DNA of 36,052 nt from a virus. A model generated the notes under the pieces. The model saw nothing but the letters and a program-made list of their open reading frames with translations. It was not told where the DNA came from and made no database searches. Each line of letters starts with the position of its first letter. The stretch's first letter is position 1. The stretch lies in the IMG/VR virus record IMGVR_UViG_3300037189_018073, positions 1 through 36,052 of that record; one strand, 5' to 3'. Shown here one piece after another: positions 1 through 21,257 of the stretch. A program made the position numbers and the translations under genes.

Positions 1-968
1 GTATTTACGTCAACGACCCCGTCGATCCTTACATCATCTTTGTTTTTATCAATTCCCCATTTACCAAGAAGCCATTGTTCGCTGCCAAAAAACAACACAC
101 CATCAGCTTCAAAACAAACAAACTGGGCATCACTAGCAAGTTGCTTTAGTACGTCCCAAGTTGATTCTCTTTCCCCGAATTCGTTGGCTGATGATTTTAT
201 CTGTCTGGTTTTTGTTGTTTCTTGACCTATAAAATCCAAATCAAAAGCAATTGCCACCTGTCTTGCCCATGCCGTTCCGTTTGTTCCACTAAAACGTGCT
301 GGGTTTTTGTCTCTTTTCATTCTCTGAATAGCTTCAGATCTGCATTCAAGCGTTACTTTTGGTGAAGAACTTTCGCCAGGGGCGTACTCAACAGAAGCTA
401 TTTCATACCTGTACCACTGATCTAATTTTTGATTGTAGTGCAAAATCAATCTTCTTAAACCTAGGTAATTATTTGGCCCTTCAAGGAGAAAGTAATTATT
501 ATTCAACATTTTCATGTCTGGATCAATAAGGGAAATTGTCATTTGTGCTGCCCCATCAAGGGTCCAACTCATTTGAACAGATGTTATGTTTTCAGTAACT
601 TCAGAAGATATCTGAAAATCTGCGGCATTTTTTATTTGATATGTTTGTAATGCTTTTGTAGTTGGGTTCTTTACGCCTTTGTCCCAAACGCCCGTGGCCG
701 ACTTGAGGGGGCAAGCAACGCCAAGCGCTTTTAACGCTTTGATCAACGCGGTTTGCAAAGCTTTTACTGCAGCTCCGCTATCTCCTTTTTTGCATAATTT
801 AGAAATACCAAGTTTTGCTGCAGTTGTCTCATCAAGTACACCATCTATTCTTGTTGCCCATCCAACAAAAACTATATTAAATGGAAATCCGGTAATTTTT
901 GTATCTATAGCACCTAGTGGGTCCGTGATACTTAGCACCTTTTGCGGGTCTGGTATCTGTGTTGTCAT
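1..968 (-). CDS. Baseplate hub / tail protein with inserted peptidoglycan-binding-like domain (3' end outside window)
   Basis: An open frame starts at ATG 968 (MTTQIPDPQK) and runs off the left edge, so only about 322 residues are seen. The part after residue ~125 (SWTLDGAAQMTISLIDPD, then a VEYAPGES segment) resembles the gp27/gpD/XkdQ-like hub of contractile tails, which joins the tube to the spike. Residues ~58-115 read like a PG_binding_1 repeat: KKGDSGAAVKALQTAL, then TGVWDKG and TTKALQTYQ. This is the family pattern G-x-x-G-x-x-V-x-x-L-Q followed by G-x-(Y/W)-D...T-x-x-A-(L/V)-x-x-(F/Y)-Q. A wall-binding module in the hub would suit attachment to or penetration of a Gram-positive envelope. 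The gene lies 2 nt after the previous tail gene, in the same operon. The hub call rests on context plus fold-like patterns; the PG-binding motif is the stronger evidence. Confidence 0.7.
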   Translation of the reverse strand, partial: MTTQIPDPQKVLSITDPLGAIDTKITGFPFNIVFVGWATRIDGVLDETTAAKLGISKLCKKGDSGAAVKALQTALIKALKALGVACPLKSATGVWDKGVKNPTTKALQTYQIKNAADFQISSEVTENITSVQMSWTLDGAAQMTISLIDPDMKMLNNNYFLLEGPNNYLGLRRLILHYNQKLDQWYRYEIASVEYAPGESSSPKVTLECRSEAIQRMKRDKNPARFSGTNGTAWARQVAIAFDLDFIGQETTKTRQIKSSANEFGERESTWDVLKQLASDAQFVCFEADGVLFFGSEQWLLGKWGIDKNKDDVRIDGVVDVN

Positions 969-970
969 AA

Positions 971-1684
971 TTAATTTTCTCGCATTAATTGTGCTTTGGT
1001 TTTGGCTCCAAACTTGGTATCTTTTTGTCCATCGCTTCCAACGACATAAAAAGAATCTGGGGTACTAGCATCGGTCCTCCACAATAGACCAAAATTGGGA
1101 TCTGGGTTTGTTGTTATACGCGGAGGCACATATGTGTACGTAAATTTTGGTATAAATACAGACTGCAGGAAAGATGGGTTGTCTTGTCTGCAAGTTAGAT
1201 TGACAGTTGCCCTTGTTGGTAAAAGCGTTCCACCAGCAGTTTGGTCCGAAGTCATTCTTGATTGTATGGCAAAATCAATGTTTGTTATTCTCCAGTAAGG
1301 GAGACCTCTAACCCCTGGCTGACCAAACATCAAATCAAGAATGTGTGGAAAATTGTAAAACACAACAGGTGATCTTTTATGAGGACCATCATTTGGCGGA
1401 TTGGCAATCGCTCTCAATATTTGCAAGTCTGTCTCAATTGAAGACATGTCGTTGTTTCCAACAACAAAAGACATCGATATTTCGACAAGGCTCTCGGATC
1501 CAAAATCCGTAAGTGGAGCGTTTCCTGGTCTGGCAATTTCTGCGTATTGTGGAGCTATGTTTCCAACTTGAAATTCGCTTGGAGGGTACTTAAGTGCATA
1601 CATAGGTGGGTCAAGACGGCTCTCAGTGTTACTAAAGTCGCCAGTACCGTCTGTCGCAAGACGTATCTGATAAACGCCAGTCAT
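971..1684 (-). CDS. Tail tube-associated / baseplate protein (CIS-tube / XkdP-like)
   Basis: 237 residues directly downstream of the tape measure, with 1 nt between them, and upstream of the hub. Around residues 35-75 the pattern EFQVGNIAPQYAEIARPG followed by PLTDFGSESLVEISMSF resembles the start of contractile-injection-system tube / XkdP-type proteins (Asn-Pro-rich strand, RPG, PL.(F).S....L.(F)). These join the tube end to the baseplate. There is no LysM-like C-terminus, which many XkdP homologues carry. The C-terminal part (TYTYVPPRI..) has no recognised domain. Position between tape measure and hub is typical of myovirus baseplate-initiator genes. The family is assigned from pattern and order; P2 gpU-type or gp53-type proteins are alternatives. 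Confidence 0.55.
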   Translation of the reverse strand: MTGVYQIRLATDGTGDFSNTESRLDPPMYALKYPPSEFQVGNIAPQYAEIARPGNAPLTDFGSESLVEISMSFVVGNNDMSSIETDLQILRAIANPPNDGPHKRSPVVFYNFPHILDLMFGQPGVRGLPYWRITNIDFAIQSRMTSDQTAGGTLLPTRATVNLTCRQDNPSFLQSVFIPKFTYTYVPPRITTNPDPNFGLLWRTDASTPDSFYVVGSDGQKDTKFGAKTKAQLMREN

Positions 1685-1685
1685 G

Positions 1686-4600
1686 TCATGACCTCTCGTT
1701 CATTGAACGCTGAGAGCGCTTGATCTTTTCCATAACTGCATTTGCAATCGCCTCTGGGTCTTGATTTGCTCCATTAACTGTTATGTTGTAAGAGTTTGCA
1801 ACTGAACCACTTCCAGAAGAACTAACACCAACCACTGACGGCATTGGACTATCACCAGTTCCTGGGACTACGTGTAAATGACGATCAGCTTGTCCACCAT
1901 GGAACTCTGCAAATCCGCCGCCATTTCTTACAGCCACGCCGTATGCACCTAGGTTTTGTCCAACCAGGTCGTACGCTCTTCCAGTTTTGTGATCTGAATT
2001 CAACGAACCAAGATTAAAATTACGTAGAGATGAAGTTACTGATCGCTTTCCTGTGATGCCAGAATCAATTTGTCTGTGGCGATCAAGCGTCTGTTGAACT
2101 CTTGAAGTAGGAGTGTCATGCTGTAAACCCTTTGGTGTTGAAGTGTCGCCACTATACCAGTCTGGTTTTGTGGACCACCAGGTTGGTGTGTCTTTAAACC
2201 AGTTTGGCGCAGAACCAGTAGACATTGATTTAGCAATATTTGACCATTGATCGGTCAAGCCCTGAAGCACTGCGGATTCAGATTCGCTCATCAAGTCGAT
2301 CGCTGTCTGAGTTGATTTCTCTCCAGCCGTAGTGCTTGCCGTGAGGTCTCCTGATGTTAGGTTTAGTACTCCGGCCTGCGGTCCCAAAAGGGCGTTTACG
2401 TTTGCAATGATTTGTTTATTAATTTCAGCTTTTGCCTGCTTTGCTTCATCGCCTGTTCCGCCAGCTTTATTCATTAACTCCTGACTTATACTAAAACCAC
2501 CATTTTCTTTCATCGTTGTCATTTTGCTGTAAGCGTCAAAAAGTTGGTTAGCACTTAGTTTATTGGTTAATGTGTCAAGTACGCTTTGTGGGAGAACCAT
2601 CCCACCCTCGGTTGCCATGCCCTGTATTTGATCGTAAACACTAAATGCTGTTTTTGACCTAAGACCAGTTGTCGGATCGTTCATGACTTTATTTATAAGG
2701 GCATCAGCGCCACCCTCAAAACCACCAGCGTTTGAAAATGAGTCAAATGCTCCATAAAGCGGGCTGGTCTTGTCAGCAAAAACTCTTGAGTTTTTATTTA
2801 ATTTTCCATTTGGACCAAGCCCAATTGTGTCCATAAACAGTTTCATCGCGGCCGCAGGGTCATTTGGATTCACGGTTTGAGCATTGGTCATGGTGTCTTG
2901 CATGAATTTTGTAACATCACTAGTTTCTAATCCACCAGCGCGAGCTTTTTCACCAAAACCCTTGGCTATTTCGTTCATTACCAACGGAGCATTTTGCGTC
3001 TTGACGAATTCGTCAAGAGCGGAAACAGAATCAATCATTGCATTTGATAATTCCGTCTTAAGGGTTTGTGCGGTTTTTGCAATAAAAAATCCAAGCTGCT
3101 TTAAGGCGTCAATCGATTTTAGGGTTGGGTCCAAAAGATTAATACCCATTGAGTCTGCCATCTTCTCAATTTCGGCTGCAGATTTTCCAGTTAGTTCCGC
3201 CATTCTTTTGATTTTTGGATCATAAGAATCTTTCATGATCTTTCCAATTTTTACGTATGCGGCGGCTTGTTTTTCTAGTTCCTTGGTAAATGCAGTTGAG
3301 TGTTTCTTTGCTTCTTTGCCCTGTTTTGCAGTAAGCGTTCCGTTTGAAACTAGGTCATCAATCATTCCGCCACGGACTTGGTCTGTGCTAGTTTTACCAC
3401 CAGCATCGCCAAATTTTTTGGCCATGTTTATTACTTGGTTGAAATTGCGATTTACATAGTCAGCTCTTGTTGTTCCACCCTTGCCTGTAGTGGAATATTT
3501 AGTGAATGCCTCGTATGAAGCTTTTTGCTCAAATCCTTGAGTTATTGCTTGAGCAACTCCCTTTGCTGCTTTGCGTTCTAACTTTCCTCTGTTAATTGTT
3601 CCTGCCGCAAATCCAACAACTGCACCAATAGCGGCACCGACTGCCGTTCCTATTCCTGGGACCATTGATCCGATTGCGGCACCAGCTATTGCTCCGGCGG
3701 CAGCACCACCTTTGGCTGTCTTTGCTTTCAACGCAGAGATACCAAAGCCAACACCGATAGCAGCCATTGGACCAAACATTGGAGCAAGAGAAGCACCAAG
3801 AGCCATTCCACCTTGATCACCTACACCCTTTGAGGCAAGGTAGCTCATACCGATGGAGGTGGCCATGTTTACGCCTTGGCTTTGTCCGCCAAGCGCACGA
3901 CCAGTTCTTGACTTGTACTGTCCATTGGCATCTTTGGCACCAAGTAGGCCTGGACCACCAGGACCAAGTTTTCCGGTGATAGAACCAGAAGAGAAGCGCT
4001 TGAAATTCAAGCCAGCCATTCTTCCTCTAAATCCAGCACCTGTTCTTGCTCCGCCACTGGTTTGAGATGCTTGTTGAAGTTCGCTTAGTTGTTTTCCTTG
4101 TCCAATTCCAAATATTCCACCGCTAGCTCTTCTTTCGGCTATTGATGCTTTGAAGTTGGTGTACTTTGCTCGTAAAAATTGACCGTTTGACTGATAGTTT
4201 GCCGCGTCAGATCTAAGACCCGCACCTTGCGCTCTAAATTCGTCCCTACGACGAGTTAGTTGTTCAAGTTTTCCCTCTACCGTTCTTCCACCAGCAGTTC
4301 CAGTTGAATATCCCTGCTCTGCGTTTTTTGCTCTATCACTTCTTGAAGCCAGGTCCGATCTGTAATATTGTCTCCCGGTTGCTGCAGAAGTTCTTCTTTC
4401 TGTATCACCGGCCTTTTGCCCACCAGTTGTTACTCCTCCAGCCGTACGACCTGCATACTTTTTGAGCATCTTGTCTGATTCGCCACCAACTACTGCTGAT
4501 TTGTGTAAAGTTCGATCGGCTTTTGCTTGAAGTCTTGCTGCCTCAACGTGATCCCCTGATGCCGCTGCTGCTCTTGCTTGAGCTTCGTAGTTCAAACCTC

Positions 4601-10584: not shown

Positions 10585-11055
10585 TCATCCAGGAACAATT
10601 CCATCGACAACGTATCTAGAAAGATCCTGAGCAACCGCTTCAGCAAAAAGTGGTGGTTCAAAAACAAGCTTTCTTTTTGCCATTTTTGTTGTTCCATATT
10701 GATGGAACTTTGCAAACTCTACGTTGGTTCCAAACTCTGCTTCGCTATCGCCAATCCTAGATGCAGAGTTTCTCAAGTTTGTCAAACTACCAAGAAGGCT
10801 TCCATCTTGAACCATTATTGGTGCACCTGGGAAGTGGACCATTTTCCAAGATGCGTACTTTGCATCGAGTGGAGCCCAACCACCAGACGGAAGACCCGCC
10901 TGTGCAAAGTTGTCTGCGTAGGCGGTTTCTAACAAAAATCTTGCGTGGCTAAAAATTGCCCTTGGATGCTCGGCTCTTTGTTGAATTTTTTCAAGATTTA
11001 ATATTGCTTGATTTAATTCTCTTTCATCAACATTCATTTCGACTCTATCGGCCAT
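10585..11055 (-). CDS. Phage virion morphogenesis protein (gpS / HK97 gp10-like)
   Basis: 156 residues. It has an N-terminal helical part, a QAGLPSGGWAPLDAKYASWK segment typical of P2 gpS/virion-morphogenesis proteins (W-x-P-L), and the family hallmark EFGTNVEFAKFHQYGTTK followed by KLVFEPP (family consensus A-x-x-H-Q-x-G...R-x-F/V). These proteins act at the head-tail or tail-completion interface. The ATG at 11055 overlaps the stop of the upstream connector gene (TAATG), indicating translational coupling. The order connector, gpS-like, terminator, sheath fits a standard head-tail joining cluster. Confidence 0.8.
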   Translation of the reverse strand: MADRVEMNVDERELNQAILNLEKIQQRAEHPRAIFSHARFLLETAYADNFAQAGLPSGGWAPLDAKYASWKMVHFPGAPIMVQDGSLLGSLTNLRNSASRIGDSEAEFGTNVEFAKFHQYGTTKMAKRKLVFEPPLFAEAVAQDLSRYVVDGIVPG

Positions 11056-11708
11056 TACGCAATCCTTCTGCGTCTATACCTTTTTACAGCCATTAATTCT
11101 TTTTCCAAAAATCCAACCTCTAAAGGGGCAACATTTCTAGTATTCAAATCTTTAACACCAACCACGTCGTCGTGCATATTTTGCATTTCTCTGGTGGCTG
11201 CTCTGAGAATCATCAACTTAAACATTTTTATGTTTTCACCAGCAAGGCCAGCCGTATATGTGTAGGTAACAAGATCATTGGCGTAACCATAGTAAAGGTC
11301 GACCCCAAATTTTCTTACAACATAATCCTGTTCTTGAACCAGTTCGAACTCGTCCCCATACTGAGGTTTTACTGTTATCGAATCAACAGATATGACTGGA
11401 GAGTTTTTAAAATAAACAGTCTGTGGTGGTCTCATGAATGTAGACGAAGGTGTTTGAGAGTTCCATGTTTGAAATGAACTATTAAAACTTTGTCCTGCAT
11501 CATTGTAGAAAAAAGAGTTCATTGGCATGCCAGTAAACGTCGACTCAAGACGGTATTCTTCGGTGAACTCATTCACTTGTATTGGCCTGCCAAGGTATGC
11601 TTCTAGTTCGCTCTGGAGTCCCTCTATTACCATCTGGGCGGCGTCGGACTGCTTATTGGAAAATGAAATATCCATATAAGTTTTTAGATCTGAAACTGTG
11701 ACTAGCAT
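11055..11708 (-). CDS. Head-tail connector protein (gp6-like)
   Basis: 217 residues. The start MLVTVSDLKTYMDISFSN followed by AAQMVIEGLQSELEAYLGRP is the typical helical opening of phage head-tail connector (gp6/gp15-like) proteins, which form the ring below the portal. The middle is strand-rich (VYFKNSPVISVDSITVKPQY) with an extended DLVTYTYTAGL segment that matches the conserved Y-x-A-G motif of the family. The C-terminus is basic (KRYRRRRIA). SD GGGGGG lies just before ATG 11708. It is followed by, and overlaps, the gpS-like gene. It is longer than the minimal ~100-residue family because of a central insertion. Confidence 0.75.
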   Translation of the reverse strand: MLVTVSDLKTYMDISFSNKQSDAAQMVIEGLQSELEAYLGRPIQVNEFTEEYRLESTFTGMPMNSFFYNDAGQSFNSSFQTWNSQTPSSTFMRPPQTVYFKNSPVISVDSITVKPQYGDEFELVQEQDYVVRKFGVDLYYGYANDLVTYTYTAGLAGENIKMFKLMILRAATREMQNMHDDVVGVKDLNTRNVAPLEVGFLEKELMAVKRYRRRRIA

Positions 11709-11733: not shown

Positions 11734-11946
11734 TTAACTGCGACGGCGACGAAGAAGGTTTCTTGCTGCCTGACCTAAGCGGGATTCACGCAAAATCTGT
11801 CTTGCTGTCGCGCTTCCTGCCTGTCCGGTTCTTCTGCCGCCAATACCTTCGACTACTCGGTTCACCAATCGGCGAGCAGTTCCAGCACGGCCAACACGGC
11901 CCTCGGTCTCTTCTCCACCAATTTCAGGGAAGTTGTAACAAATCAT
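11734..11946 (-). CDS. Small Arg-rich basic protein
   Basis: 70 residues, about a fifth arginine (15 Arg by count), ending LLRRRRS. After an acidic start (EIGGEETEG) it is strongly basic with helical character (RLVNRVVEGIGG, ARQILRESRLGQAARNLL). SD GGAG lies 8 nt before ATG 11946. It is codirectional with and just upstream of the connector. A plus-strand frame over the same bases is equally long but has no SD and poor context. A small nucleic-acid- or capsid-binding protein is possible, but no family is recognised. Confidence 0.55.
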   Translation of the reverse strand: MICYNFPEIGGEETEGRVGRAGTARRLVNRVVEGIGGRRTGQAGSATARQILRESRLGQAARNLLRRRRS

Positions 11947-12009: not shown

Positions 12010-12579
12010 CTACCTGTCCGCGTTTGGTGGTCTCTCTATGCCCACAGCGGAACCAACAGGTCCAGCGTTGACGGATTCGGTAGACGCCTCAATTGGAACC
12101 CAAGCACGAGAATACCTATGTTCAGAAATATTTTTTGCTTTTAGGACTGTTCCGTCAAGCATTATGTCAAGTTCGTCGTATTTCATACACAGCATTTCGG
12201 CAAGTTCTTCTTGTTGATAAGCGCCAGAAGAAACAATATCCTTGACAATGTTAGATAGGTTTTTTGCAACAACCGAACCTCTACCCCTGTTAATTGATAC
12301 ATGAAGAATTCTGGCGTCTATTGAGTCGCATTCAACCCTAACCACCGGGATCATGTCACCAACAACTTCGCGGACATACTTGTTGTCCTTGGCAAGCATC
12401 CATCGTTGCACCCCATCAATTATCAAATTTTCAGAATTAACAACCAGGGGTGAAAGAATTCCATATTTACAGATCGAAGAAGATAGCACCACTAGGTCTG
12501 GTCGCAATATGTAGTTTGCGTGCCATGTTGGCTTCTTGAGATCGTCAACGCTAACAAGTTCAGTTTTCATAAAGTTCAC
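12010..12579 (-). CDS. ParB/Srx-like nuclease-fold protein (IbrB-like)
   Basis: 189 residues. The N-terminal ~110 residues have the ParB/sulfiredoxin fold pattern: DLKKPTWHANYILRPDLVVL, SSSICKYGILSPLVVN, then LIIDGVQRWMLAK (G-x-x-R, residues 55-60), corresponding to the phosphate-binding motif of the family. A second part (EELAEMLCMKYDEL) resembles a helix-turn-helix. It overlaps the upstream PAPS-reductase-like gene by 20 nt from the GTG at 12579; ATG 12570 is an alternative start. Paired ParB-like and PAPS-reductase-like genes are the arrangement of E. coli IbrB and IbrA, which co-activate prophage gene expression. That is established for E. coli; extending it here is inference. A DNA-binding or DNA-modifying role cannot be excluded. 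Confidence 0.75.
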   Translation of the reverse strand: MNFMKTELVSVDDLKKPTWHANYILRPDLVVLSSSICKYGILSPLVVNSENLIIDGVQRWMLAKDNKYVREVVGDMIPVVRVECDSIDARILHVSINRGRGSVVAKNLSNIVKDIVSSGAYQQEELAEMLCMKYDELDIMLDGTVLKAKNISEHRYSRAWVPIEASTESVNAGPVGSAVGIERPPNADR

Positions 12580-13711
12580 TGCTTTCTATTATTTCTATTT
12601 CTTTCTTTCTAACAGAAAAAGCCTTGGTCTTTGGGCCAACAGGAGAAACAGCGCTTCCGTTGTCTATGTTGTTCAATAACAGATTTCGCATCAAGAGATT
12701 CATTGGATATGAATGTTTGTCAAGTATATGTTTTTTCCTAAACTCAGAAACGTAGGACTTGGCCCGTCGTTGTTTTGTGACACCAATAATGTAATCCTCA
12801 ATCAACCACTTGGCTCCTTCGAAACCATGAACTGCATAGTTTGAAATAAGAGTCTCGAAATCAAAATCTTTACCTATGCGTCTCTGGGCGTCAATGTACG
12901 GAAAGCACTCAACCAGCCTGTCGTAGAACTCTGGCTCAGTTGCTACAACATCACCAATCCTACGAATTGCAACTGCGTGCAAAGGTATTCCAACTCGCGT
13001 GTTGCTTCCTGTTATTGCTGCCAAATCGTAGTATTCGCAATACTCGGCACCATGCTCTTCGGATAGGTACTTGAAGACGTCATTAGTTTCCCAGTCGTAT
13101 ATGATCTTTGCAAATTTTAAAGGTATTCCTTTTTTTACACCAAACGGAGTGACAATGTAGTTCTCGTGCAATTTCTGAACACAGGCCCTATATCTGACCA
13201 TAGATTCATTTGCTCGCACCCCAGTTATGAAAGCAACGTTTCCCTTTTTCCCTTGCATTGTGTAGTAATCGATAGATTCGACCAATGGCTTAGCAGGGTC
13301 TAGTCCGAAATGTTCTGCTGTTATCGCCCATGGCGGCATCTCTCTAACAAGACGTCCTTCTAGTTCACGCTTCTTGCTCCACAGCAATGCCGACTGCCTC
13401 CTACCAAGAACCCATATCTCTGTTCCGTATGGAAGGCAATACCACTCCATGTCAACCCAATCGTAGTTGCGTACCTTTTCTATGTACTCAATGGTTTTTG
13501 GGGTGATCATTTCTTCGTCTCTGAATATGACTTTTACAGGACCAAGACCTCGTTCTTCGTGTATTTCTTTCGCCAGATAAAGAACTGCTGTTGAATCTTT
13601 CCCACCAGAAAACTGAATGCAAACAGTGTCAAATGTGTCGTAGACGTGACGTATCCGAGCACGCGCCGCTTCAACGCAACTTATATTCAAGAACATCCGC
13701 TGCCTAGTCAT
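12560..13711 (-). CDS. PAPS-reductase-like ATP-pyrophosphatase (IbrA / DUF3440-like)
   Basis: 383 residues with a clear N-type ATP-pyrophosphatase P-loop: QFSGGKDST (residues ~33-41). Other conserved patterns are FRDEEMITPKTIEYI (~63-77), GVRANES (164-170, family G-x-R-x-x-E-S), IYDWETNDVFKYL (~204-216, family W-x-x-x-D-(V/I)-(W/F)) and SNTRVGIPLHAVAIRR, typical of the DUF3440/IbrA group. Such enzymes adenylylate a substrate using ATP, as in PAPS reductase, IbrA or DndC. A C-X-C-X-x-C cluster like that of DndC was not seen. Overlapping or adjacent ParB-like genes lie on both sides, so the three are probably one functional unit. The actual substrate (sulfur transfer, nucleobase, or none) is unknown. 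SD AGAGG lies before ATG 13711. Confidence 0.85.
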   Translation of the reverse strand: MTRQRMFLNISCVEAARARIRHVYDTFDTVCIQFSGGKDSTAVLYLAKEIHEERGLGPVKVIFRDEEMITPKTIEYIEKVRNYDWVDMEWYCLPYGTEIWVLGRRQSALLWSKKRELEGRLVREMPPWAITAEHFGLDPAKPLVESIDYYTMQGKKGNVAFITGVRANESMVRYRACVQKLHENYIVTPFGVKKGIPLKFAKIIYDWETNDVFKYLSEEHGAEYCEYYDLAAITGSNTRVGIPLHAVAIRRIGDVVATEPEFYDRLVECFPYIDAQRRIGKDFDFETLISNYAVHGFEGAKWLIEDYIIGVTKQRRAKSYVSEFRKKHILDKHSYPMNLLMRNLLLNNIDNGSAVSPVGPKTKAFSVRKKEIEIIESSELYEN

Positions 13712-13714
13712 TGA

Positions 13715-14494
13715 CTAAACCTCTGTATGTTGTTCGATGAAATCGATTAACTTTTCAGCAGTAGTTGAACCGTCTACCCCTGGATCACTCCTGAGCCACT
13801 TTATAAATGAGTACCATTTTGACTGCTGATCTGGACTATCAAAAACAATTGTGTATTGAACAACCGCTTGCGGCGCTGAAGCCCTCGCAGCAACAGTGCT
13901 GCCTTTTATCGCAACCTCGTTGTGATCCATACCATTTGGGGCAATAATTTCCATATCGCCATCTTCGTTTCTCTCTAGCATTGAACGGACTTCTTTGTCT
14001 CCTTCAACATTAGGCTGGACAATCACCGGAGCAAAATATTGTGAACCAGTCAAAACTTCCGTTTGACTTGCAATCGTTTCATTGATCGAAGCCATTTCAA
14101 ATTCGTCCCACCCGAGATCATTCCAGAGTTCTGGGTAGATGTCGGACACTTCAACGAGAAGTTGGGACAGCATGTCATTGTCTGTCTTGCCGAGCTCCAT
14201 TGTTCTATTGTCAGCAAGCGCATAAGCAATGGCTCGATCGTCATCTGCTTCCAGGAACACACAAGCAATCTTGTCCCACCCAAGTTGTCTGGCTGCTTGA
14301 AGCTGGTGGTTTCCGGCAATTACGGTTGCTGAACCATCCTCGTTCTTTTTGGCAACAATTGGTTTTACTTGACCGAATTCCTCGTATGAAGCGGCTATCG
14401 CTCTTACGTCACCTTTTCTCGGGTTGTTTTCAAGAAACGAAAGATCATCAATGTTGACAATCAAATTCTTTAATGATGGATGGATGTTTGTCAT
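13715..14494 (-). CDS. ParB-like nuclease-domain protein
   Basis: 259 residues. The N-terminal domain shows DLSFLENNPRKGDVRAIAAS, a YEEFGQVKPIVAK strand, then ATVIAGNHQLQAARQLGW (residues ~57-73) in place of the usual IAGHRR-x-x-A-A, and DDRAIAYALADNRTMELG, the pattern of ParB domains attached to phage or plasmid DNA methylases. No methylase follows. A middle acidic stretch leads to a C-terminal segment, VVQYTIVFDSPDQQSKWYSF, followed by SDPGVDGSTTAEKL, that looks like a small partner-binding domain. The last gene base is 4 nt before the PAPS-reductase-like start. GNHQ instead of GHRR suggests altered nucleotide or phosphate binding. The ParB-fold call is solid; function (transcriptional, nuclease, modification) is not known. 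Confidence 0.85.
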   Translation of the reverse strand: MTNIHPSLKNLIVNIDDLSFLENNPRKGDVRAIAASYEEFGQVKPIVAKKNEDGSATVIAGNHQLQAARQLGWDKIACVFLEADDDRAIAYALADNRTMELGKTDNDMLSQLLVEVSDIYPELWNDLGWDEFEMASINETIASQTEVLTGSQYFAPVIVQPNVEGDKEVRSMLERNEDGDMEIIAPNGMDHNEVAIKGSTVAARASAPQAVVQYTIVFDSPDQQSKWYSFIKWLRSDPGVDGSTTAEKLIDFIEQHTEV

Positions 14495-14495
14495 T

Positions 14496-14834
14496 TTAAA
14501 CCTGCGCTCTAACGTTTGCGTTTAGTGTTCTGAGAGCATCAATACTAGTTCTAAGCGACAACAATTTTTCACGCTTCGCCTTCAGCAATCCTTCGGCCAT
14601 CTTGGAATCGAAAATTGGATCGCCAAGTTTGTAGTCAGCCCAAGCCTCTCGCTCCTTGATTGAGCCTTTCGCGGAAAGATATTCTTTGGCCCAACTAGAT
14701 TTCATGAAGGCATCTTTCTTGGCAAAATCTTCTGCAAGTTTTTCAAACGCTTCGGTTTCTGATTCAAGCAAATCAAGCAAGCGAAGTATTTCGTTCTCAA
14801 TATCAACTTGACTTATAGGGCCATTCCTAGTCAT
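14496..14834 (-). CDS. Small helical protein of unknown function
   Basis: 112 residues, nearly all predicted helical: EILRLLDLLESETEAFEKLA, then KKDAFMKSSWAKEYLS, WADYKLGDP, and a C-terminal KAKREKLLSLRTSIDALRTL coiled-coil-like stretch. No catalytic motif is seen. It sits between RuvC-like resolvase (8-nt overlap) and the first ParB-like gene (ends 1 nt before). Small coiled proteins with a C-terminal KAKREKL-type segment occur next to recombination genes in many phages, so an accessory role in recombination or replication is plausible. Not a recognised family. Confidence 0.75.
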   Translation of the reverse strand: MTRNGPISQVDIENEILRLLDLLESETEAFEKLAEDFAKKDAFMKSSWAKEYLSAKGSIKEREAWADYKLGDPIFDSKMAEGLLKAKREKLLSLRTSIDALRTLNANVRAQV

Positions 14835-15366
14835 TAAGTATCCCTTCCAAAGGCTTTACTGGATTCCACTCTATCTTTTCCAAGCTGGAAAGACTTACCT
14901 GCGGCCACTGGTGCTTGCCGCGCCCGTAATGCGAAAGAACCATTTCTTCAAGGATCCACGCATCACATTTATCATCCGACCCAGAACCCGACCAAACAAT
15001 TCCGGTCTTTGCTGATATTGCTGAAATAACGTCGTTCTTAGAAGCATTACCTCTACCCGTTGCAAACTTTGCTCTGCATGTTGGAGGGATCTCAATGTAG
15101 GGTATGTTGTTTGCATAAAGCTGAGCCCTGACTACTCCACCTAGTTCCCCAATGGAGAACGCTTGAGAGTTTCTTGCTGCGAATGCGTAACCCTCTATGG
15201 CTACTAGTCCAACCTTTTCTTTGAGCGCCAAACTGACTATTGTCATGCTTATTTCGATCAGTCTTGCAGGGCCTTTTTCTTTTGATGCAATGACAAAGGT
15301 TTCCCCCTCCACCGATAACCCCGTTGAGGTGAGCGATAGGTCTAGCCCCATTACCTTTGATTTCAT
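14827..15366 (-). CDS. RuvC-like Holliday junction resolvase
   Basis: 179 residues. RNase-H-fold resolvase pattern with the catalytic acids in order: D9 in MGLDLSLTSTGLS, E58 in LVAIEGYAF, D132 and D135 in GSDDKCDAWI. The GRGNASKNDVISAISAKTG segment matches the RuvC-like helix region. It cleaves branched DNA, here likely before or during packaging. First gene of leftward block 1. ATG 15366 has no convincing SD (preceded by CTGTCT); a -10-like TAATGT lies at 15378-15373, 6 nt upstream, which would suit a leaderless transcript. That is speculative. Confidence 0.85.
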   Translation of the reverse strand: MKSKVMGLDLSLTSTGLSVEGETFVIASKEKGPARLIEISMTIVSLALKEKVGLVAIEGYAFAARNSQAFSIGELGGVVRAQLYANNIPYIEIPPTCRAKFATGRGNASKNDVISAISAKTGIVWSGSGSDDKCDAWILEEMVLSHYGRGKHQWPQVSLSSLEKIEWNPVKPLEGILND

Positions 15367-15391: not shown

Positions 15392-15419
15392 AAAAAGCCG
15401 CCAGCATCTAGCCGGCGGC
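15392..15419 (-). terminator. Minus-strand intrinsic terminator T1
   Basis: On the minus strand GCCGCC (15419-15414) pairs with GGCGGC (15402-15397), loop 11 nt, followed by TTTTT (15396-15392) and GCTTTATA. It lies just upstream of the RuvC-like start. It would end any transcript entering from the control region, including a possible short RNA from 15.5 kb. Confidence 0.65.
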
Positions 15420-15594: not shown

Positions 15595-15646
15595 TAAAAT
15601 GCAAAAGACGCAAAAGCCGAGTGAGCTTCCCCACCCGACTTTTGCG
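15595..15646 (-). terminator. Minus-strand intrinsic terminator T2
   Basis: CGCAAAAG (15609-15616) and CTTTTGCG (15639-15646) extend on the minus strand to a 15-bp stem using G-U pairs, with loop GGGAAGCT. It is followed by CTTTTGCATTTTATG. The plus-strand version would have A-C mismatches and no U-tract. It would stop antisense transcripts that read through the plus-strand cassette from block 2. Confidence 0.65.
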
Positions 15647-15715
15647 CCTATAACGGTCCTAAGGATTACAACTTTACACCCGTCAGCAATACAGGAAGTG
15701 TTAATAATAAACTTT

Positions 15716-16466: not shown

Positions 16467-17087
16467 ATGGCTTTTAAGCAACTCTGGTTCTGGAAACCAA
16501 AACAATTAACAGACAGATGGGCGGAAGTTCATGCTTTCTCTACGGAGGAGTTTGAGCGTCCGTCCATTGTTGTTTCCGAGAATAGACCGACCGATTCAGA
16601 TGTAATCTGGTTTGGCTCCGTTGATGAAGATGAGAATCTTTTCATAAACTGGAGAGACCAAGATGTAATGGGAATTGCACCACCACTCTGGTATGTAGTG
16701 AAAGATGCACCACGACCACACCCAAATGGACCAGATATTCCAATGATGTTTATTTATGCTTTGTATGGTGACGACTTCCCATCAGGAACGATAGTCATGG
16801 AAACAGATTTAATCAAGAACAAATTTGTCGGTCATTCCGAGCGGGTTGGTTTCCTTCAGTGGTTCAAGCAGGATTCAAAAATACAACAGATTTTCGTAGA
16901 AGAAAAATGGCGTCGACAGAGAATAACGCTTGCCCTATTTGGAGTTGCTGATTTAGTAATAACGTCTGGCAACTACGGCCCGTTCCTAAATGGAGGCGAA
17001 GTTACGACAGGTGATGGCGAAACATTGCGAAATGCCTGGGATGGAAGCAATCGGGTGAACAAGAGAATTGGTTCTGTAGATAACTAA
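16467..17087 (+). CDS. GNAT-like acetyltransferase-fold protein, second gene of the cassette
   Basis: 206 residues, 9 nt after the Trp-rich gene. The central to C-terminal part has GNAT-like elements: MFIYALYGDDFPSG, ERVGFLQWFKQDSKIQQIFV, then EEKWRRQRITLALFGVADLV where motif A (R/Q-x-x-G-x-G/A) is degenerate (RRQRIT), and a GGEVTTGDGETL stretch at the end. If it is a GNAT it has lost the usual glycine and may be inactive or bind something else. It overlaps the HNH gene on the opposite strand by 4 nt, with no terminator between. The weak SD suggests coupling to the upstream gene. Confidence 0.7.
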   Translation: MAFKQLWFWKPKQLTDRWAEVHAFSTEEFERPSIVVSENRPTDSDVIWFGSVDEDENLFINWRDQDVMGIAPPLWYVVKDAPRPHPNGPDIPMMFIYALYGDDFPSGTIVMETDLIKNKFVGHSERVGFLQWFKQDSKIQQIFVEEKWRRQRITLALFGVADLVITSGNYGPFLNGGEVTTGDGETLRNAWDGSNRVNKRIGSVDN

Positions 17088-17458
17088 CGCTCCCAGCCGT
17101 GTTTGGCTAGACCCAAATCAAATGCAAGTTGTGGATAGTTCCCAATCCTGGTGTGACAAGGCCTGCATACGGCAAGAACATTATCTTCATCCAATATCGA
17201 CCCACCTTGAGATCTGCGAATCAACTCATGCACATCTTGACTTGGTAATTGAACAAAAATGGTTTTTTCGTCGTGTAGCGCAAACACCTTACAAGCCTGA
17301 CAAGCCGGACGCTCGCTTAGTATTTTCTCAACAAAAAGACGGCGTTCTTTATATTTTTCTTCTGTTTTTTTGCTTCTGTTTTTAGGTTTTGTTTTCCGTT
17401 TTGGAGGAGCTCCACGCTTAAGCGGAGTTCTCTTTAAAGGTTTTTTCCTATTTTGCAC
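17084..17458 (-). CDS. HNH endonuclease
   Basis: 124 residues. A basic N-terminal tail (residues 1-40, Lys/Arg-rich) precedes C53-x2-C56, VHELIRRSQGG (H77), NVLAVCRPCH (N93, C98, C101, H102): the HNH fold with a zinc knuckle. Such proteins often assist the large terminase in packaging or act as homing-type nucleases; in block 2, a packaging role is plausible. The start is GTG 17458 (CAAAATAGG follows); no ATG exists upstream in frame. The C-terminal end overlaps the convergent plus-strand cassette. Confidence 0.9.
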   Translation of the reverse strand: MQNRKKPLKRTPLKRGAPPKRKTKPKNRSKKTEEKYKERRLFVEKILSERPACQACKVFALHDEKTIFVQLPSQDVHELIRRSQGGSILDEDNVLAVCRPCHTRIGNYPQLAFDLGLAKHGWER

Positions 17459-19952: not shown

Positions 19953-21257
19953 CTAGACGATGATAGCGACACGTTTTCTTTGTGGCAACCCCAATCCAGT
20001 TAAAAACGTGAATGCACCAACAGCAGAGTCAACTTGGTCGTCGTGATCGCATGCTTCAGGAAATGAAGCAAACTCATCAAGCCATTCACTGAGCCAAGGT
20101 CCACGCACAACACGAACATTCCCGTTGGCCACGGCAGCAGCAAATGGCCTAGCCCTCGTTACCTTATCCCCTGTAGCCCTCAATGCTGCAAAATCGTATC
20201 CAGGAATCACATATCTTGCATATTGATCCATTAAGGCTTTTCCAGACGATCCTGGCTCTTGCTCCATTCTTATGGGAACAGTGTGCCCATCCTCGTAGGC
20301 AGTTTGAGCAATCAACTGTTCTACCTTGTCGCCCTTAACCCTCGCCTTTTTCACATCCAAGACATAAGCAACGCCTTGGTCAAATAACATCAAAGTCCCA
20401 ACTGTCCAGTCGGGATTTGGTGTCTTCTCCGATGGTTCCGTTGCTGCAAGGTCCCAAAATCTGCAGACCCTTGCCGATGATGTCATCTGAGGGATTTCAT
20501 TTCCGTCCACGATCACCAATGAGGTTCTTTCAAAGAGGGAGCCCAGTGTCGTGCTCCACCAGTCGCCTTCTTCCAGTCGCCTACGCTCTACTGGGTCAAG
20601 AGCCTGAAGGGCTTGACGGTATGAAGCCGCATCAACTCCAGGGTTGTCGGCAAGTTTGGAAGGGACAAAGATTCTCCCCTTGTCGATACCTTCAACGATA
20701 AACCGTTGCCTAACCCAATTAGGGGCGGGGTTTGAGGCCGCCCTCATTCGTAGTGGAACTTGAGATAGCGGTCCAGTCGCAGGTCTTCTAAGACGGGAGA
20801 ACAGGTATCTGTAGTCACTTTCTCGGATTTCGGTTACTTCGTCCATGCCTATAAATTGGAATTCTGAACCTTTATAACGGAGGTAGTCGCTTTGGTTGTT
20901 CAAGTAACCAAACGAAATTCTCGCACCAGAAGGGAATGTGGCAATAAAGCTGTTGTTATTCCAGTGGATGTCGTCGTTGGGCGCAATCCATGTCCTAAAT
21001 CTGTCCATGAGTGCTCCAGGAAGAGATAGGTCAGCAAATGTTCTACGAAAAAGAATTGCTGAATATCCAGGGACATCGACATATTGCATCGCAGCCATAA
21101 GCAATGCCGAGGATTTTCCTCCTCCTGCCGCACCACCAAAAAGTGCTTCAATCCCATATGTTCTTAGGAAAACCTTTTGATTTATGGATGGTTGTTCTGG
21201 CACGAACGGAGGCATCTTCGGCTCAAGGTAGTCAAGAACTTTTTGCCAATCAGTCAT
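19953..21257 (-). CDS. Terminase large subunit
   Basis: 434 residues. ATPase: Walker A GGAAGGGKSS (residues 41-50), Walker B FIGMDE (~135-140) with its coupling segment. Nuclease: D269 (RFWDLAAT), E332/E334 (MEQEPGSSG), and D406, D407, D410 (DDQVDS), the RNase-H-like triad. It translocates DNA into the prohead and cuts concatemers. The size is typical for a phage TerL. No small subunit is seen next to it. First gene of leftward block 2, in a divergent arrangement with the portal; SD is weak (GAAAG). Confidence 0.97.
   Translation of the reverse strand: MTDWQKVLDYLEPKMPPFVPEQPSINQKVFLRTYGIEALFGGAAGGGKSSALLMAAMQYVDVPGYSAILFRRTFADLSLPGALMDRFRTWIAPNDDIHWNNNSFIATFPSGARISFGYLNNQSDYLRYKGSEFQFIGMDEVTEIRESDYRYLFSRLRRPATGPLSQVPLRMRAASNPAPNWVRQRFIVEGIDKGRIFVPSKLADNPGVDAASYRQALQALDPVERRRLEEGDWWSTTLGSLFERTSLVIVDGNEIPQMTSSARVCRFWDLAATEPSEKTPNPDWTVGTLMLFDQGVAYVLDVKKARVKGDKVEQLIAQTAYEDGHTVPIRMEQEPGSSGKALMDQYARYVIPGYDFAALRATGDKVTRARPFAAAVANGNVRVVRGPWLSEWLDEFASFPEACDHDDQVDSAVGAFTFLTGLGLPQRKRVAIIV

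Follow-up and report, generated by a model that had tools for sequence, protein, structure and literature searches.

Two ParB-fold proteins and an IbrA-like PP-loop ATP-pyrophosphatase form a conserved phage gene triad with a possible role in nucleic-acid modification

What do two ParB-fold proteins and a PP-loop ATP-pyrophosphatase, encoded side by side between recombination and head-tail genes, do for a phage? The locus lies in a window of 36,052 nt, the whole stretch of viral DNA analyzed here, which encodes a contractile-tailed phage as judged from its gene content (terminase large subunit, annealing protein, exonuclease, tail sheath, tail tube, tail assembly chaperone, portal and head protease). 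A preliminary description of this DNA had placed two different ParB-fold proteins around an ATP-pyrophosphatase with the motif SGGKDST, and all three open reading frames were found: ParB1 (13715-14494; 259 aa, ParB fold, phrog_723 type, motif GNHQ), the IbrA-like enzyme (12560-13711; 383 aa, phrog_2302, 'PAPS reductase', SGGKDS intact, DUF3440 absent) and the IbrB-like ParB2 (12010-12579; ParB N-domain, HTH and tail, 189 aa when read from GTG). The enzyme is present as a single copy in the virus record. The three genes belong to one operon, with RuvC on one side and head-tail genes on the other, and all the genes with coordinates in this paragraph are on the minus strand. The RuvC-like resolvase gene (14827-15366) is the first of the conserved operon, followed by a small conserved partner (phrog_1389; 14496-14834), which is 1 nt upstream of ParB1. 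The spacing between ParB1 and the enzyme is 3 nt, and ParB2 overlaps the enzyme gene by 20 nt from its GTG start, or by 11 nt from an ATG at 12570, in agreement with the overlapping or few-nucleotide spacing described before. Downstream are a small basic protein (11734-11946), the head-tail adaptor (11055-11708) and the tail sheath, and upstream of RuvC are found the exonuclease and annealing protein, farther away, and the terminase large subunit (19953-21257), so that the setting between recombination and head-tail genes was also as described. Judged solely from its place in the operon, the triad would act late.

Some other features of the window were also recorded. Two strong terminator-like hairpins (15606-15649 and 15397-15419, with 20 and 9 pairs, respectively, and T-rich tails) closely precede the RuvC start at 15366 and lie, like RuvC, on the minus strand. 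About 30 nt remain in which a promoter could fit, and antitermination of the operon is possible. The slot of the small basic protein is occupied in L014, L018 and L036 by small proteins ending in Lys/Ala-rich, histone-H1-like tails. A divergent gene (16467-17087, plus strand) is conserved in 17 relatives; its assignment as a GNAT was rejected since the match was too weak (E 0.09). The product of 17084-17458 (minus strand), conserved in about 41 relatives, looks HNH-like by eye (C..C, H.....GG, C..CH). The window gave no Rfam match and no tRNA, megablast found no DNA relative among named phages, and there was no prophage match pointing to a host, the scan of the genome collection giving distant homologues only.

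At least 599 IMG/VR stretches encode a relative of the enzyme, and the best 80 of these share 69-97% identity with it; most of those 80 with a long enough contig have the order RuvC, small gene, ParB1, enzyme, ParB2, a variable gene and the adaptor. We then considered 110 related enzyme loci with at least 1.2 kb of flank on each side, many of which are closely related, so that the counts do not represent independent events; several relatives exist as fragments only. A ParB gene was present within 4 kb of the enzyme in 104 of the 110, and ParB1 upstream together with ParB2 downstream in 90 (54/60 in the window's clade and 36/50 elsewhere). The preliminary description had named a lack of co-occurrence in homologous phages among the findings that would refute its reading; the outcome favours the module. 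It had also regarded the flanking ParB pair as unusual; in this subfamily the pair is the rule. The same gene order occurs in Arthrobacter phage Salgado, Mycobacterium phage Phlyer, M. abscessus prophage prophi79-1, Bacillus phage 031MP002 and Rhizobium phage RHph_I4, whose enzymes have 28-41% identity to that of the window, and in the IMG/VR relatives of these phages. All 30 carrier records searched have a ParB_N match, and in a 154-kb relative the two ParB_N matches in total are those flanking the enzyme. In the bacterial loci with a strong enzyme match (E below about 1e-50; L156-L172 and L174, L173 being excepted), a ParB gene adjoins the enzyme, and ParB2 is next to it in all except L156, where the contig stops within the enzyme gene and ParB1 is present upstream. 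Seven relatives with enzymes of 72-73% identity (L028, L030, L044, L046, L048, L052 and L064) have no adjacent ParB, and two of these have a ParB elsewhere on the contig. In L028, the enzyme gene is flanked by a 341-aa ORF and, on the opposite strand, a helicase-like ORF. Compared with the close relative L005, the enzyme has a dN/dS of 0.024 and ParB2 one of 0.052, the synonymous sites of ParB1 being saturated; nonsynonymous change is strongly suppressed, that is, purifying selection is strong. The order kept in unrelated phages and the dN/dS values confirm that the triad is a real, conserved module, beyond chance. No account of it as a single functional unit was found in the literature searched.

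The central enzyme matches PF01507 (E 5e-11), with the motif FSGGKDST, and phrog_2302 (E 1e-75). Residues invariant among 39 diverse members include R19, SGGKDS, D65, E67, W111, G164, R166, E169, R173, D206, W207, D211, Y228, R239 and P260. A phmmer search against solved structures gave no match, so profile and fold searches were needed. In sequence profiles FAD synthase ranked first (E 5e-8), followed by ATP sulfurylase (E 3e-7). The best fold match of the AlphaFold model (pLDDT 85.9) was the PAPS domain of FAD synthase (Z 16.7, 3.3 A, 178 residues), and APS reductase (Z 14.9), ATP sulfurylase subunit 2 (Z 14.7) and FMN adenylyltransferase (Z 14.7) were also matched; these matches barely cover the C-terminal region past about residue 260. 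With an intact PP-loop and nearest folds that transfer adenylyl groups, the enzyme should, on sequence and model grounds, cleave ATP into AMP and pyrophosphate, and it presumably adenylylates something.

The family name suggests a true PAPS reductase, an auxiliary metabolic gene boosting sulfate assimilation of the host. The Pfam name of PF01507 agrees with this, and phage PAPS reductases have been interpreted as sulfate-assimilation genes (PMC6145125, PMC8879888), a reading on which doubt has been cast (PMC11437467). The C-terminal catalytic cysteine motif of the EC.GH type was not found in the enzyme alignment by motif search or in the cysteine columns, and the constant ParB partners have no role in sulfate reduction. 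Together with the intact ATP loop, these points led us to reject an assimilatory PAPS reductase, which we consider extremely improbable as the function of the triad enzyme. The label 'PAPS reductase' is misleading in view of the intact SGGKDS, the FAD synthase and ATP sulfurylase folds, the lack of an invariant cysteine among the 39 diverse members and the lack of a cysteine desulfurase in the carrier records (0 of 28, with the control positive in 14/14).

The last two observations also bear on DNA sulfur modification of the DndC type, which the preliminary description had brought in. A DndC/SspD-like phosphorothioate system could draw its sulfur through a host cysteine desulfurase such as IscS, and there were weak, partial matches to DndC, SspD and BrxP. 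Cys225, in the motif YC..YD, is retained in every triad-type member of the alignment except L131, but the Hendrix-type branch mostly has Asn at this position, and the residue also fits the YC.LYD motif of FAD synthase. The conserved cysteine pair of DndC was not found across the enzyme family, the DndC model TIGR03183 scored 22.9 bits, far below its cut-off of 290.4, and neither DndD nor DndE was noticed adjoining the module. The phosphorothioate reading is therefore disfavoured, and we regard it as very improbable.

As for the flanking proteins, ParB1 matches Pfam ParB_N (E 6.5e-8), has the motif VIAGNHQLQAA and carries a conserved C-terminal region (FD..QQ..W). GNHQ, pointed out earlier as unusual, is indeed fixed in ParB1 of the window's clade (40/40 rows readable at the motif), but the motif is variable elsewhere, and the arginine is missing also from the GNHT, GTHT and GNNL of other ParB1 proteins. 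ParB2 has a marginal Pfam match (E 0.063) and matches phrog_2159 (E 3e-27). In its AlphaFold model, a ParB N-domain is followed by a helical HTH region; the model matched Myxococcus xanthus ParB with CTP-gamma-S (Z 14.1 over 92 residues) and KorB (Z 13.7 over 141 residues, HTH included). Residues D55-G56-x-x-R59, P78, N97-R98, E136 and W160 are invariant in a 35-row alignment, and the nucleotide-site motifs DGxxR and NR are among them. Residues 152-189, modelled with pLDDT below 50, form a presumably flexible tail, yet carry an invariant tryptophan motif (Y..AW), and the terminal PPNxDR is present in 20/20 rows of the window's clade; the simplest explanation is that this tail may serve as a docking element. 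The ATG at 12570, which gives 186 aa and aligns with the start in many relatives, is likelier to be the start of ParB2 than the listed GTG. A plasmid-style partition ParB was not favoured; no ParA was noticed adjoining the module.

The relationship to the IbrA/IbrB pair, which the preliminary description had given as a parallel, proved to be one of homology and not mere analogy. The enzyme aligned with the IbrA homologue of phage PhiR5_2 (hhalign 100%, E 6e-45) and ParB2 with the IbrB homologue of the same phage (99.9%, E 3e-34), and these profile alignments establish true, though distant, homology of the two proteins to IbrA and IbrB. (The IbrB homologue of Edwardsiella anguillarum, L168:7261-7821, seems split into two ORFs.) DUF3440 (PF11922), present in phage IbrA homologues, was absent from the window enzyme and from four other triad-type enzymes scanned. 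Given this absence and the added ParB1, the triad represents a DUF3440-less branch of IbrAB with an extra ParB1, and it is this variant that is new here, the IbrAB kind itself being known but poorly understood.

This homology raises the possibility of a transcriptional co-activator. ParB2, with ParB1, would act as an NTP switch on operator DNA, and the PP-loop protein would adenylylate or otherwise alter RNA polymerase, a regulator or DNA, turning on late genes as IbrAB does for eib; in E. coli, IbrA/IbrB were reported to activate eib gene expression (Sandt 2002, as given in PMC6008420). The match of ParB2 to KorB, a ParB-family transcriptional repressor, the position of the operon among late genes and the ybdNM pair of E. 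coli K-12, which has the same PAPS-reductase/ParB make-up and no settled function, with YbdM a predicted transcription factor (PMC9068703), are consistent with such a role. However, it leaves unexplained why other carriers have accessory genes for a methyltransferase, a GNAT or a glycosyltransferase, a constant enzyme-ParB core across many gene orders is not expected for a regulator, and the mechanism of IbrAB was described in none of the literature searched. We consider a co-activator possible, though on balance unlikely. It would overlap with a modification function if IbrAB itself works by modification.

The accessory genes just mentioned, found outside the window's clade, encode enzymes with the potential to act on a modified base. 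The methyltransferase phrog_11826 directly adjoins the module in 10 of 66 loci, including those of Arthrobacter phages, the M. abscessus prophage and Bacillus phages; GNAT acetyltransferases adjoin it in some carriers outside the window's clade, and a glycosyltransferase-like protein with methyltransferases does so in the Hendrix-type branch. After these modifying genes there are usually genes for an HNH nuclease, a terminase or both. In L066 (10011-11078), the slot after ParB2 is occupied by a 355-aa ORF, glycosyltransferase-like by eye. Phage Hendrix (NC_047977.1) has a glucosyltransferase, a methyltransferase, an acetyltransferase and the enzyme at one end of the record (93630-97757), and three ParBs and the terminase at the other (1-4307); this two-end gene set is a candidate hypermodification cluster.

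The explanation that we tentatively prefer, at rather less than an even chance, is that the products of the triad assemble into a single ATP-dependent machine for the chemical modification of nucleic acid, the phage's own DNA being the likeliest target. The conserved order, purifying selection, adenylyl-transfer folds, likeness of ParB2 to CTP-binding ParB, neighbouring modifying enzymes and precedents support it. In phages, CmoX, a DNA C5-carboxymethyltransferase, and its AMP-forming ligase are found together with ParBc genes (PMC12783734), the ParB-like ATPase DpdB acts with DpdA in the insertion of preQ0 into DNA (PMC12839542), and in DNA phosphorothioation a PP-loop enzyme has an ATPase and a DNA-recognising component as its partners (PMC12707154). 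ParB2 would bind DNA in an NTP-dependent manner and hold the catalytic subunit through its tail, ParB1 being a structural or DNA-entry subunit. The PP-loop subunit would adenylylate a base or phosphate, to which a small nucleophile could then be attached. In other phages, the adjoining methyltransferase or GNAT may complete the modification, and in the window's clade the bare product may be made. Of the earlier interpretation, the IbrA/IbrB pairing stands and the modification role is still leading, though unproven, whereas the phosphorothioate branch has been weakened.

Several points stand against a modification complex. Phrog_11826 was absent from the long records of the window's clade tested and a GNAT was present in one of 17 records; phrog_11826 itself had no clear match to a Pfam DNA-methylase. 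The reported activity of IbrA/IbrB is activation of gene expression, the HTH of ParB2 would suit a transcription factor just as well, and the enzyme occurs without an adjacent ParB in a few relatives in the window's clade, as described above.

The terminase genes suggest a further possibility, an accessory of packaging or recombination in which the ParBs would nick phage DNA or load onto it around the step of terminase or RuvC action, the PP-loop enzyme serving as regulator. The terminase large subunit is nearby in many carriers, RuvC is present in the window's clade, and nicking and NTPase activities of ParB-fold proteins have been reviewed (PMC5512222). In Rhizobium, Escherichia, Lactobacillus and Streptococcus phages, however, the genes do not adjoin the terminase, and the ATP pyrophosphatase chemistry would be left without a role; we hold this explanation to be improbable.

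More broadly, though we regard this as doubtful, a modification complex might exemplify a widespread, as yet undescribed type of hypermodification of phage DNA: NTP-dependent ParB-type proteins would seat a PP-loop adenylyltransferase on DNA, the base or phosphate would be activated by chemistry like that of TilS or FAD synthase, and the finishing acetyl-, methyl- or glycosyltransferases would be swappable. The IbrA/IbrB-like pair is found in many phages and Enterobacteriaceae, its enzyme is often annotated as a sulfate-metabolism gene, and no mechanism for it was found in the literature searched. The triad with its swappable modifying enzymes near the terminase suggests a concrete function that can be tested through the chemistry of virion DNA, and Bacillus phage 031MP002 and Arthrobacter phage Salgado are culturable carriers. 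If the modification complex is real, it would add a route of modification and correct annotations of auxiliary metabolism.

Among the known systems close to the triad is IbrA/IbrB (E. coli ECOR-9; PhiR5_2 and Streptococcus phages), in which the homologous genes are adjacent and often overlapping, except that IbrA has DUF3440 and the triad has the additional upstream ParB1. The triads of Arthrobacter Laroyevirus, Phlyer, prophi79-1, 031MP002 and RHph_I4 have the order of the window; they differ in that they often have phrog_11826 or an adjoining terminase, and they have been annotated gene by gene. FAD synthase and ATP sulfurylase (CysD), the nearest solved folds of the enzyme, are alike in adenylyl-transfer chemistry but act on small-molecule substrates and have no ParB partners, whereas the classical PAPS reductase in the alignments lacks the SGGKDS loop that the window enzyme keeps. 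In DndBCDE and SspBCD, too, a PP-loop enzyme works with an ATPase and with components for DNA recognition, DndB being ParB-like (PMC10853773, PMC12707154), but the triad enzymes show no conserved dyad of cysteines and the carrier records searched contained no cysteine desulfurase. The CmoX/CmoY carboxymethylcytosine pathway resembles the triad in having a ParBc gene beside DNA-modifying and AMP-forming enzymes (PMC12783734), although CmoX, compared by description, is of the methyltransferase type and not a PP-loop enzyme.
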